NCBI GenBank assembly: GCA_013298595.1
Contig: JAAFIG010000058.1
Location: 1 to 11,362, forward strand
Source of the DNA: Deinococcales bacterium
GTDB taxonomy: Bacteria > Deinococcota > Deinococci > Deinococcales > JAAFIG01
Direction: 5' to 3'
DNA: 11,362 nt
The first letter of the stretch is position 1, and each line of letters opens with the position of its first letter. Below the pieces are notes generated by a model. That model was not told the DNA's origin, made no database searches, and saw nothing but the letters and a program-made list of their open reading frames with translations. This document shows positions 2,788 through 10,709 of this stretch, piece after piece. Both the position numbers and the translations under genes were made by a program.

Positions 2788-2850
2788 TGTCTCTTTCCTA
2801 TTCTCGAGGTTTGTGCATGGCAATGCTTGTCTGCACCCTAGACGATATAC

Positions 2851-2883
2851 AAAAAAACCGACTCGTTGAAAATCTCGAGTCGG
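2851..2883 (-). terminator. Intrinsic terminator inside the leader (attenuator)
   Basis: Perfect 8-bp stem CCGACTCG / CGAGTCGG (arms 2876-2883 and 2858-2865), 10-nt loop, followed on the minus strand by seven U (2851-2857). It lies between the promoter at 2955-2984 and the gene start at 2787, so it would cut transcription after about 100 nt unless read through. One arm includes most of a CTCGAG motif. Confidence 0.75.
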
Positions 2884-2907
2884 AGGCAATCAGCAAAAAA
2901 CGAGTGC

Positions 2908-2949
2908 TTAACTCGAGCCTCCGTGCCAATGTTTTCCATAATTTTGCAT
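2908..2949 (-). CDS. Possible 13-aa leader peptide MQNYGKHWHGGSS
   Basis: The ATG at 2949 lies 5 nt after the TACACT box of a consensus promoter, so the transcript would begin at this codon and the peptide would be translated leaderlessly. The stop codon falls in the loop of the small hairpin 2901-2915, a position where a terminating ribosome could alter the downstream folding. The peptide has His-Trp-His but no leucine run, so a classic leucine attenuator is not supported. The ORF is very short and could be chance. A second overlapping frame (ATG at 2939, stop at 2838) would run through the terminator. Confidence 0.3.
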   Translation of the reverse strand: MQNYGKHWHGGSS

Positions 2950-2954
2950 GACGG

Positions 2955-2984
2955 AGTGTAACTTAGGCTTAAGAAACTTGTCAA
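2955..2984 (-). promoter_or_regulatory. Sigma-70-type promoter for the condensing-enzyme leader
   Basis: On the minus strand, TTGACA (2979-2984), an 18-nt spacer and TACACT (2955-2960). The predicted start is at about 2949. This is one of the two best promoters in the window. Confidence 0.7.
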
Positions 2985-3068: not shown

Positions 3069-3099
3069 AAAAAAAACGGAGCGCTTTTAGCGCCCCGTT
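3069..3099 (-). terminator. Intrinsic terminator after the L25 gene
   Basis: On the minus strand a 10-bp stem AACGGGGCGC / GCGCTCCGTT with one G-U pair, a TAAAA loop and a run of eight U (3069-3076). It starts 15 nt after the L25 stop codon and closes the aroB-pth-L25 block. The rest of the stretch, 2985-3068, shows no gene or other signal. Confidence 0.9.
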
Positions 3100-3113
3100 C
3101 GAGAGAACATATT

Positions 3114-6942: not shown

Positions 6943-7605
6943 TTAAATACTTCGACGTTCAGGGTCTGCTTGGTATTGTTTCTTGCTGTAAAACCACAAG
7001 TAAGTAAGGCTGGTAAACATCGCGGCTGTCCAAATAAGCATAACGGTTATCAAGATACTCGAGGGCAATGTCAAAGCAAGAATAGCTAAAGTTGCGCCAA
7101 GGATAACCCAGTGCCAACCACCTACGCGGTGGGTGGCATACCAAGCGCGGTCGCTGCCGAATGTCCAAGGGAATTTGATACCTGCGAATTTATTGGGTGG
7201 GGTTTTTGGCATGATATTGCCTATGACCATAAATAATGCACCTATAGCAATAAAGAAAATTCGTGAATCACCAATGCTATTATTTTTGAAAGCAGCAATG
7301 ATCCAAAATTGCAGAATAATCATAAATAATGTAATGGTTATTTGTATTGTACTCATTGTTTTTTGGGCATCACGAACTCGAGCATCTAAGTTAGGTAAGA
7401 ATTTATCCATTACCCATAATAATAAAATGGCAATGGCAGGTATCAACATGATGATGCTTGCCTCGAGCCGATTACCGTAACGGTCTGGGTTACCGTTGAT
7501 ATCAAAATGCACTGCGACTCGTTCTGGTAATTGAGCTGCACTAATAAAAGCAAATACACTGCACCAAATCGTTGCACCTATACTGAGTAAATCGAGGGGT
7601 TTCAT
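6943..7605 (-). CDS. SdpI-like membrane protein (DUF1648 plus SdpI domain)
   Basis: 220 aa, about six membrane helices (roughly 7-22, 50-67, 88-106, 113-131, 165-181, 183-205). The N-terminal DUF1648 signature is LPERVAVHFDINGNPDRYGN (26-45). The C-terminal SdpI signature is IGNIMPKTPPNKFAGIKFPWTFGSDRAWYATHRVGGW (128-164). In Bacillus subtilis SdpI protects against the killing peptide SDP and, by sequestering SdpR, senses it. Here the gene directly follows an SdpR-like regulator with a 4-bp ATGA overlap, the same order of partners as in Bacillus. No sdpABC toxin genes are in the window, so self-immunity is not shown. Resistance to foreign peptides or an envelope-stress role is equally possible. 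This is the last gene of the operon. Confidence 0.88.
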   Translation of the reverse strand: MKPLDLLSIGATIWCSVFAFISAAQLPERVAVHFDINGNPDRYGNRLEASIIMLIPAIAILLLWVMDKFLPNLDARVRDAQKTMSTIQITITLFMIILQFWIIAAFKNNSIGDSRIFFIAIGALFMVIGNIMPKTPPNKFAGIKFPWTFGSDRAWYATHRVGGWHWVILGATLAILALTLPSSILITVMLIWTAAMFTSLTYLWFYSKKQYQADPERRSI

Positions 7606-7883
7606 ATCGTCTCCTTGGGAGTTTCTCGAGGGGCAAAAAAGTCAAATAAATGGGCGACCACATCTTCAAAAACACTGGTGTTTAAGCAGTAAGTAATGGT
7701 TGTGCCGCGTTTATCTTGGATAATTAAATCGGCGGCTTTGAGGACATTAAAATGTCCACTGAGGGTACTTTTTGCTAAGGGAAAAAGGTCGGATAATTCG
7801 CCTGCACTACGTTCTTGTTCACGTAGTACGCGCAGAATTTCACGGCGAGTTGGGTCGGCAAGGGCTTTAAAAATTTCGTTCAT
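7602..7883 (-). CDS. ArsR-family repressor, SdpR-like
   Basis: 93-aa winged-helix DNA-binding protein. MNEIFKALADPTRREILRVLREQERSAGELSDLFPLAKSTLSGHFNVLKAADLI has the usual ArsR/SmtB start, with the recognition helix at about 37-50, followed by a wing (KRGTTITYCLN, 58-68). The alpha-3 metal motif of metal sensors (ELCVCDL) is absent; ELSDLF stands there, as expected for a non-metal SdpR type. The operon position between the hydrolase (4-bp overlap) and SdpI (4-bp overlap) suggests it represses its own operon, with SdpI as membrane partner. The candidate operator is the palindrome at 8856-8879. Its function is inferred from the Bacillus SdpR/SdpI pair. Confidence 0.88.
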   Translation of the reverse strand: MNEIFKALADPTRREILRVLREQERSAGELSDLFPLAKSTLSGHFNVLKAADLIIQDKRGTTITYCLNTSVFEDVVAHLFDFFAPRETPKETI

Positions 7884-9169: not shown

Positions 9170-10657
9170 GTGACTCTCCCCCCATTCCAATCCGAAGTTC
9201 AATCCTTGGTCGAACGCCTCTCGGCGAATGCTAAAGCTGTTGCTCTCAGCGAACTCGAGAACGGTGCTAAAAACCTAGAAAAAATTGCACTCCAAGCGGG
9301 TGCTACGCATCTGGCTCGAGTCTCTAATCGCTTAGCTGGTCTCGCCAAAACTGCTGCCGAAATGAGTTTTCCTGTGTCTTTAATGGTGCTGGATACAACC
9401 TTTAAAGCTTTAGAACGTGCCGATGTTAGCGAGAATCTGGATCGTTTAGAAACAGTGCTAGAAAGTTTAGAAGAAGAAGCTTTTTTGTATGCTCCTGCTA
9501 TGGGTTCGCTTAATCTCGAGCCTACACCTGTGCTTGAACCACAATCAGATGAAGCCACAGGTGGTTTTAGGCGAATTTTATCAGTAGATGATTCTGGGTT
9601 GGTTCGTAGTGCTTTGCGGCGCATTTTTGCCGAAGCGGGCGCGGGTGTCGAAGAGGCACGTAACGGCACAGAGTTACTCGAGCGGCTCAAAGAAATTGGT
9701 AAATACGATTTAGTACTGCTGGATTTACAAATGCCCGATTACACAGGTCTCGAGTTATTGCCGCATATCCGTAAAGCCTCGCAAGATGTGGTGGTGGTGA
9801 TGCTCACCGCTGCTGGTGATGTCAAAACCGCCATCGAAGCCATGCGAATCGGCGCCGATGGTTTTCTAGCCAAACAAGATTTACCACTCGAAGGTGATCG
9901 TAGCGAATTTTATTATGCGCTCGAGCAAGCCAAAGAGTACCGCGCTGGCATTATTGCCCGCCAACAACTCGAGAGTATGAAAGCCGATTTGTACAGCATG
10001 GTGACGCATGACCTGAAAAACCCTGCCAATGTGATTGGTTTAAGTTTAGAGCATATTCTCGAGAATAACACCAGTAATTTAACCGCCGAACAACATAAAG
10101 CTTTACAAGTTGGTAAAGATGCTGCTGAAAAATTACAACGCCTTGTGGTGGATTACCTCGATTACGCCAAAATAGACGCAGGGTACTTTACCCTCGAGCC
10201 AAACCCAACCGATATTGCTGTGCTGATTCGCTCGAGTGCTGAACAAGCTAAAGTGATTGCTACCAGCAAAGGGCAGCGCCTGAACTTAACCTCCCCAGAT
10301 AAACTCGAGACGATTGCCGATGAACCCCGCTTAAAACAAGTGGTGGATAACCTGATTGGTAACGCCATCAAATACACCCCAGATGATGGCTTAATAGATG
10401 TACAACTGACCACCACAGGTTCGTTATTTCGGATTTCCGTTGCCGATACAGGCAATGGTATTGCCGCCGATCATCTGCCACGTTTATTCAAAAAATATCA
10501 GCGCTTACCTGGCGAGCAACGCCGCAGCACAGGCACTGGTTTAGGCTTAGTGATTGTCAAAAGCATCATCGAAGCCCACGGCGGACGAGTCTGGGCAGAA
10601 AGTGCTGGTGTTGGCGAAGGCAGCACGTTCACCCTCGAAATACCCATAAGGAATTAA
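9170..10657 (+). CDS. Cytosolic hybrid histidine kinase: helical N-terminus, REC, HisKA, HATPase
   Basis: 495-aa signalling protein without membrane helices. Residues 1-110 are all-helical; the segment with His47 (ATHLARVSNRLAGLAKTA) faintly recalls an Hpt domain but lacks a clear HxxKG motif. Residues 134-250 are a receiver domain: Asp140/Asp141, phospho-acceptor Asp185 in LLDLQMPD, Thr213 and Lys235. Residues 265-335 are HisKA with His280 in SMVTHDLKNP. Residues 345-495 are the ATPase: N-box VVDNLIGNAIKYTP (391-404), G1 DTGNGIA (426-432), F-box LFKKYQR and G2 GTGLGLVIVK. All catalytic residues are present. A receiver before the kinase suggests it takes phosphate or is gated by another kinase; no partner response regulator is nearby. 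The GTG start at 9170 has only a weak GAGG (9156-9159) upstream. It contains about 11 CTCGAG motifs. Confidence 0.9.
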   Translation: MTLPPFQSEVQSLVERLSANAKAVALSELENGAKNLEKIALQAGATHLARVSNRLAGLAKTAAEMSFPVSLMVLDTTFKALERADVSENLDRLETVLESLEEEAFLYAPAMGSLNLEPTPVLEPQSDEATGGFRRILSVDDSGLVRSALRRIFAEAGAGVEEARNGTELLERLKEIGKYDLVLLDLQMPDYTGLELLPHIRKASQDVVVVMLTAAGDVKTAIEAMRIGADGFLAKQDLPLEGDRSEFYYALEQAKEYRAGIIARQQLESMKADLYSMVTHDLKNPANVIGLSLEHILENNTSNLTAEQHKALQVGKDAAEKLQRLVVDYLDYAKIDAGYFTLEPNPTDIAVLIRSSAEQAKVIATSKGQRLNLTSPDKLETIADEPRLKQVVDNLIGNAIKYTPDDGLIDVQLTTTGSLFRISVADTGNGIAADHLPRLFKKYQRLPGEQRRSTGTGLGLVIVKSIIEAHGGRVWAESAGVGEGSTFTLEIPIRN

Positions 10658-10668
10658 GAGGAACATAA

Positions 10669-10709
10669 AAAGACGAAGGCAAAAGACCAATTCCTTTGCC
10701 TTCGTCTTT
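10669..10709. terminator. Bidirectional terminator hairpin between convergent genes
   Basis: Perfect 15-bp stem (10669-10683 with 10695-10709, AAAGACGAAGGCAAA and its complement) and an 11-nt loop. On the minus strand the stem runs into UCUUUUUA, a good terminator tail for the sufT-like gene side. On the plus strand the T tract is short. It starts 12 nt after the kinase stop and lies 13 nt beyond the sufT-like stop. Confidence 0.85.

Follow-up and report, generated by a model that had tools for sequence, protein, structure and literature searches.

In the trp, his and leu attenuators of enterobacteria, a stalled ribosome selects either an antiterminator or a terminator. Leader-peptide-mediated transcription attenuation is also said to operate in the hcs/lysine cluster of Thermus thermophilus, reportedly described by Tsubouchi et al. 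in J Biol Chem in 2005. That leader consists of a promoter, a mini-ORF with Lys codons and no Shine-Dalgarno (SD) site, alternative helices and a terminator before the homocitrate synthase gene. In Sinorhizobium meliloti, the first bases of the trpL transcript are the start codon, ATG, of a leader peptide of 14 codons, and its 3′ end is at an attenuator; the released RNA, rnTrpL, acts as a small RNA, and both RNA and peptide function in trans (PMC7298713).

A leader of similar composition is found in an 11,362 nt stretch of Deinococcales DNA, here termed the window, which is contig 54 of a 4.58-Mb draft genome (G000) of 94% completeness. We put the probability at about 85% that it is a leaderless, lysine-responsive leader-peptide transcription attenuator placed before a homocitrate synthase gene. 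Thermus has provided the precedent for this principle, and the window leader is best read from its sequence as a divergent member of the T. thermophilus hcs mechanism. It differs from the Thermus leader in having one Lys codon and not two, in preceding a homocitrate synthase of another lineage, in the separation of its gene from the lysine cluster and in the presence of CTCGAG in its stems. The S. meliloti trpL leader is similar in that the predicted transcript would start at the leader ATG and end at an attenuator, but it has Trp codons and a trpE(G) target. With the enterobacterial attenuators the window leader would have in common the choice made by a stalled ribosome. Those systems, however, use an SD site and form a complete 2:3 antiterminator, whereas the window antiterminator overlaps only about three basal bases of the terminator.

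All parts of the leader are on the minus strand. The promoter has a −35 element TTGACA (2979-2984) and, after an 18 nt spacer, a −10 element TACACT (2955-2960). Five nucleotides further on is the ATG (2947-2949) of an open reading frame of 13 sense codons, MQNYGKHWHGGSS (2908-2949), which ends with TAA (2908-2910), is predicted to be leaderless and contains as codon 6 an AAA Lys codon (2932-2934), the predicted stall codon. It encodes His-Trp-His as well, and has this one Lys codon with no tandem. Within the frame lies the 5′ arm of the antiterminator helix, CGGAGGC (2917-2923), which pairs with the 3′ arm GCCTCCG (2881-2887); between the arms is a small hairpin, CGAGTTAAGCACTCG (2901-2915), whose loop contains the stop codon. 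The intrinsic terminator (2851-2883) consists of CCGACTCG, a 10-nt loop, CGAGTCGG and a run of seven T residues (2851-2857), and has the three bases CCG (2881-2883) in common with the 7-bp helix. As in other attenuators, the short ORF is thus situated between promoter and terminator. The putatively regulated gene (1564-2787) follows with an SD-like AGGAAAG at 2793-2799. A terminator at 3074-3100 closes the upstream rplY (bL25) transcription unit and leaves the leader to its own promoter. The original prediction had named the promoter, the mini-ORF with its stop in a hairpin loop, the 7-bp helix that takes three terminator bases and the terminator itself, and these were all recovered base for base.

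Single motifs do not set the leader apart. The window promoter scores 10/12 in a promoter scan, and matches of this kind are as frequent as chance would give (16 sites against 16.3 expected from shuffled sequence). A simple terminator scan missed the terminator on account of its 10-nt loop. The case therefore rests on comparison and not on the promoter, and it is by comparison, with an architecture scan and a covariance model, that the feature stands above chance. A scan for the whole architecture in 428 kb of the window genome gave three matches, and the reversed control gave none. Of the 111 genomes of the order, 65 have a leader of this type by a covariance model whose training sequences include the window. 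When window and congener were left out of the model, positions 2849-2949 ranked first in 462 kb (24.5 bits, E 0.083). Next were the congener leader (24.4 bits) and a second leader of the window genome (21.7 bits), with the remainder at or below 19.5 bits, where the noise lies (~19.5). This sequence match gives modest support, and would not be overwhelming alone. Two weak model matches were set aside: one in the window genome (C16), inside unrelated sequence, and one adjoining a tRNA gene in genome G044 (L087).

The arrangement of promoter, SD-less mini-ORF, helix and terminator precedes homocitrate synthase genes in most genomes of Thermus, Meiothermus, Calidithermus and allied families, where genomes were taken as Thermus by gene content and position. 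It is found 5′ of both kinds of homocitrate synthase: in nearly all cases TTGACA is followed after 15-18 nt by a −10 element and the ATG comes 5-12 nt later, the one noted exception in promoter fitting being leader L028, with no good −10. The short distance between −10 and ATG, which the original prediction had read as a transcript start at the start codon, therefore recurs across the order, the 5′ end itself being a predicted one. The related ORFs have 12-21 codons and are followed by a long helix that brackets the stop codon and then by the terminator. The peptides, each ending at a stop codon, include MILSAKKPSAGGLV in Meiothermus, MLARAKKLGRRGVG in Thermus and MYKLVTRAIQNTDKRKAGGSS in the congener; one genome of the window's own family has MFSAKKPSSEDASA. 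The window leader can be aligned with those of the Thermus type (L013, L020 and others), and this order-wide conservation supports the attenuator reading.

Of major interest are the Lys codons. The AAA at codon 6 of the window ORF is invariant in 26 of 26 aligned leaders, and in 24 of these it forms part of an AAA-AAA (Lys-Lys) pair. The preceding AAA is missing only in the window and its congener; in the latter, the tandem has been altered to Lys-Arg-Lys. The window ORF had been noted to have no leucine codons, with a signal other than leucine expected, and the comparison now favours lysine, which its sequence context makes the most likely signal. Agreement between codons and targets across the wider set of leaders described below is the strongest argument for ribosome-mediated attenuation.

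The 407-amino-acid protein encoded by the downstream gene displays the Pfam HMGL-like domain and a homocitrate synthase post-HMGL domain (HCS_D2). Its best NCBIfam model is homocitrate synthase, with a score below the curated cut-off. Among solved structures, its nearest relatives are homocitrate synthases, including 2ztj/3a9i, the Thermus enzyme. All orthologues keep an RFSxED motif with its arginine, and no such motif was found in the leuA stretch of the window genome; in the Thermus enzyme this arginine binds 2-oxoglutarate. Orthologues that are 73-85% identical are found in one congener and all through Meiothermus and Calidithermus. Thermus and other families have instead a canonical homocitrate synthase that is 31-35% identical to the window protein (Thermus ~31%). 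The Meiothermus orthologues head the lysine operon, ~2.4 kb upstream of lysX, at the place where Thermus has hcs; in the window genome, lysX is on another contig, behind a Lys-Lys leader of its own, MNDAQKKPNLGHSS. Orthologue and structure comparisons thus agree with the homocitrate synthase-like target first proposed, and judged by its sequence the gene most likely encodes a non-canonical homocitrate synthase of the lysine pathway. By these protein features and the Meiothermus orthologues, the leader precedes the first gene of the pathway, as in the Thermus type. A check for the diaminopimelate pathway by way of lysA was uninformative, as that family matches nearly every genome, including those with the AAA pathway. 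Genomes of Roizmanbacteria (CPR) contain a relative that is 53-55% identical to the window protein (L044-L046), an odd distribution suggesting gene transfer. A survey of the phylum (PMC3356886, Table 1) leaves this enzyme blank for Meiothermus ruber and silvanus. The present genes point to the probable homocitrate synthase of Meiothermus and of the uncultured lineage of the window.

The 7-bp helix and the terminator overlap at alignment columns 71-75 and for that reason cannot both be complete. Both are conserved and both covary. In the antiterminator helix 87% of cells keep pairing, and one G-C pair is changed to A-U in seven sequences. In the terminator stem 87% of pairs are also kept, with compensatory changes at three pairs; a C-G pair is U-A in four sequences, and one A-U pair is present only in the window. 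Both helices exceed all shuffles in covariation score, and they exceed the slid controls as well.

Folding was modelled at 37 °C with a fixed ribosome mask of 12 nt. A ribosome placed on the stop codon leaves the two basal terminator pairs of the window with probabilities of 0.98 and 1.0. When it is stalled at codon 6 instead, these fall to 0.03 and 0.12, as the antiterminator helix takes them. In this model, the basal pairs of the window thus switch with ribosome position, as the alternative helices originally proposed would have it. Over 39 leaders the mean basal-pair probability drops from 0.88 to 0.36. Several leaders do not switch, among them L014, L033, L035 and L040, which keep their basal pairs, and detachment of the terminator from its U-run is consequently taken only as the likely mechanism on this model. 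How far the stall codon lies from the helix was dropped as evidence, since the 12-nt mask fixes part of this distance.

We infer the following course of events. Transcription would start at the ATG or within one or two bases of it, and the mini-ORF would be translated without an SD site. When lysine is available, the ribosome would reach the TAA at 2908-2910 and cover the arm at 2917-2923. Positions 2876-2883 would then be available, the complete terminator would form against the U-tract, and an RNA of ~99 nt would result. Under a shortage of charged tRNA-Lys, the ribosome would wait at the AAA of codon 6. The arm at 2917-2923 could then pair with 2881-2887 and take the basal C-C-G of the terminator stem. 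With its stem detached from the U-run, the terminator would fail and the polymerase would continue into the homocitrate synthase gene. Counting against this reading are the single Lys codon and the His-Trp-His of the window ORF, the weakness of the leave-out match (E 0.083) and a folding switch that not every relative displays. A further suggestion of the original prediction, that a terminated RNA of ~100 nt might act as a small RNA, gained no support here and would be possible in principle, given the example of rnTrpL.

An alternative is that the attenuator is real and its signal has changed within the genus, to histidine, tryptophan or the general speed of translation. Loss of the tandem in the window, which leaves one Lys followed by His-Trp-His, and the Lys-Arg-Lys of the congener would fit such a change, as would the separate Lys-Lys leader that guards the lysine cluster of the window genome. 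We regard it as unlikely, however: the AAA kept in the window is the very one that never varies among the leaders, neither His nor Trp is encoded at this place in the congener, and the target is an enzyme of the lysine pathway. Less probable again is a leader that binds a protein or metabolite (a riboswitch, a T-box or the site of an RNA-binding protein), the mini-ORF being incidental. Its helices would appear similar, and the extra small hairpin between the arms might be so explained. Against this, the ORF, its frame and its Lys codons are conserved in the 26 leaders and the segment between the helix arms is not, and the codons follow the downstream gene across targets. Rfam gave no family at gathering score for the window, and up to E 5 only two sub-threshold matches, both clearly unrelated; neither a T-box, whose absence had been noted at the outset, nor a lysine riboswitch was among the results. 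The least probable reading, that of a non-functional remnant or chance structure built from the very frequent palindrome CTCGAG, draws on the chance-level promoter score and on the 67 copies in the window, including those in the terminator stem and inner hairpin and close to the start of the gene, but CTCGAG makes up little of the antiterminator helix or of the basal terminator pairs, the architecture is also present in species with few copies and the reversed control gave no match.

A lysine-responsive attenuator at this locus would offer a testable form of lysine control for an uncultured lineage and for Meiothermus. Similar leaders are found before other genes, the target names being a reading of protein starts. 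The window genome was sampled by pattern search and in stretches. In addition to the Lys-Lys leader before its lysine cluster (lysT-lysU-lysX; C35, L137), the whole-genome pattern search yielded a leader MKNAPIIVVVVALSKGVAA, with the run IIVVVV, before the acetolactate synthase gene ilvB (C34, L135), a Leu-rich leader MKSVVSLFLALNPSRVAA before leuA (C49, L144) and MQNAYWYTT, with YWY, before a DAHP synthase/chorismate mutase gene (C6, L120). The third match of the 428-kb architecture scan, MVNALSPFTRFA, has two Phe codons and precedes pheS (C23, L129). The ilvB, leuA and DAHP synthase leaders have counterparts in the congener, and those of ilvB and leuA also in genome G003; the congener displays in addition MKHTARA before alaS. 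In Calidithermus-type genomes, MFGLATTTRRREDS and MFRLATTTRRREDF (L088 and L089, in G047 and G046) carry three Thr codons before thrS, with an architecture that matches the lysine leader. Two further leaders from Calidithermus-type genomes (L085 and L086, in G044 and G045) have MLPRSRKPRHRGLG, with Arg-Ser-Arg-Lys, before a lysJ/argD-type aminotransferase gene, whose type of enzyme may act in lysine as well as in arginine synthesis.

These leaders suggest that amino-acid control in the order commonly takes the form of SD-less attenuation, which would provide a natural setting for the study of leaderless translation. We would give even odds to a broader proposal, in which order-wide and largely undescribed leaderless attenuators control genes of amino-acid synthesis and tRNA charging in Deinococcales (Lys, Ile/Val, Leu, aromatic, Phe, Thr and Ala) and the lysine leader is present in two copies in the genus, a Lys-Lys form in charge of the lysine cluster and a weakened form with one Lys that tunes the separate, non-canonical homocitrate synthase. 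One candidate of the window genome, MKHPQTTLHTAVRVKRSKAG with its stop codon, before a saccharopine dehydrogenase-like gene (G000:C7, L122), was not counted, there being no clear terminator visible. It is conserved, with a counterpart MKHPKSTIPVAVQVKRSKSG (G001:C411, L184), and both ORFs have Lys/Arg codons.

The palindrome CTCGAG is itself unusually abundant. Its 67 occurrences in the window compare with 1.2 expected, and it occurs 27,159 times in the 4.58-Mb genome, or once per 169 bases, whereas its reversal, GAGCTC, is present 15 times. In each of the family's four genomes there are ~6 CTCGAG per kb and almost no GAGCTC; the density is ~1.4-3 per kb in Meiothermus and ~1 or less in Thermus. 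This abundance resembles that of the cyanobacterial HIP1, and a literature search found no report of it for the group. Elsewhere in the window, at 6943-7883 on the minus strand, an ArsR-type regulator gene lies directly 5′ of one for a small, SdpI-looking membrane protein, a pair that, judged by translation alone, recalls the sdpRI immunity pair. At 10669-10709, a terminator-like 18-bp inverted repeat is situated just 3′ of a response-regulator/histidine-kinase fusion (9170-10657).
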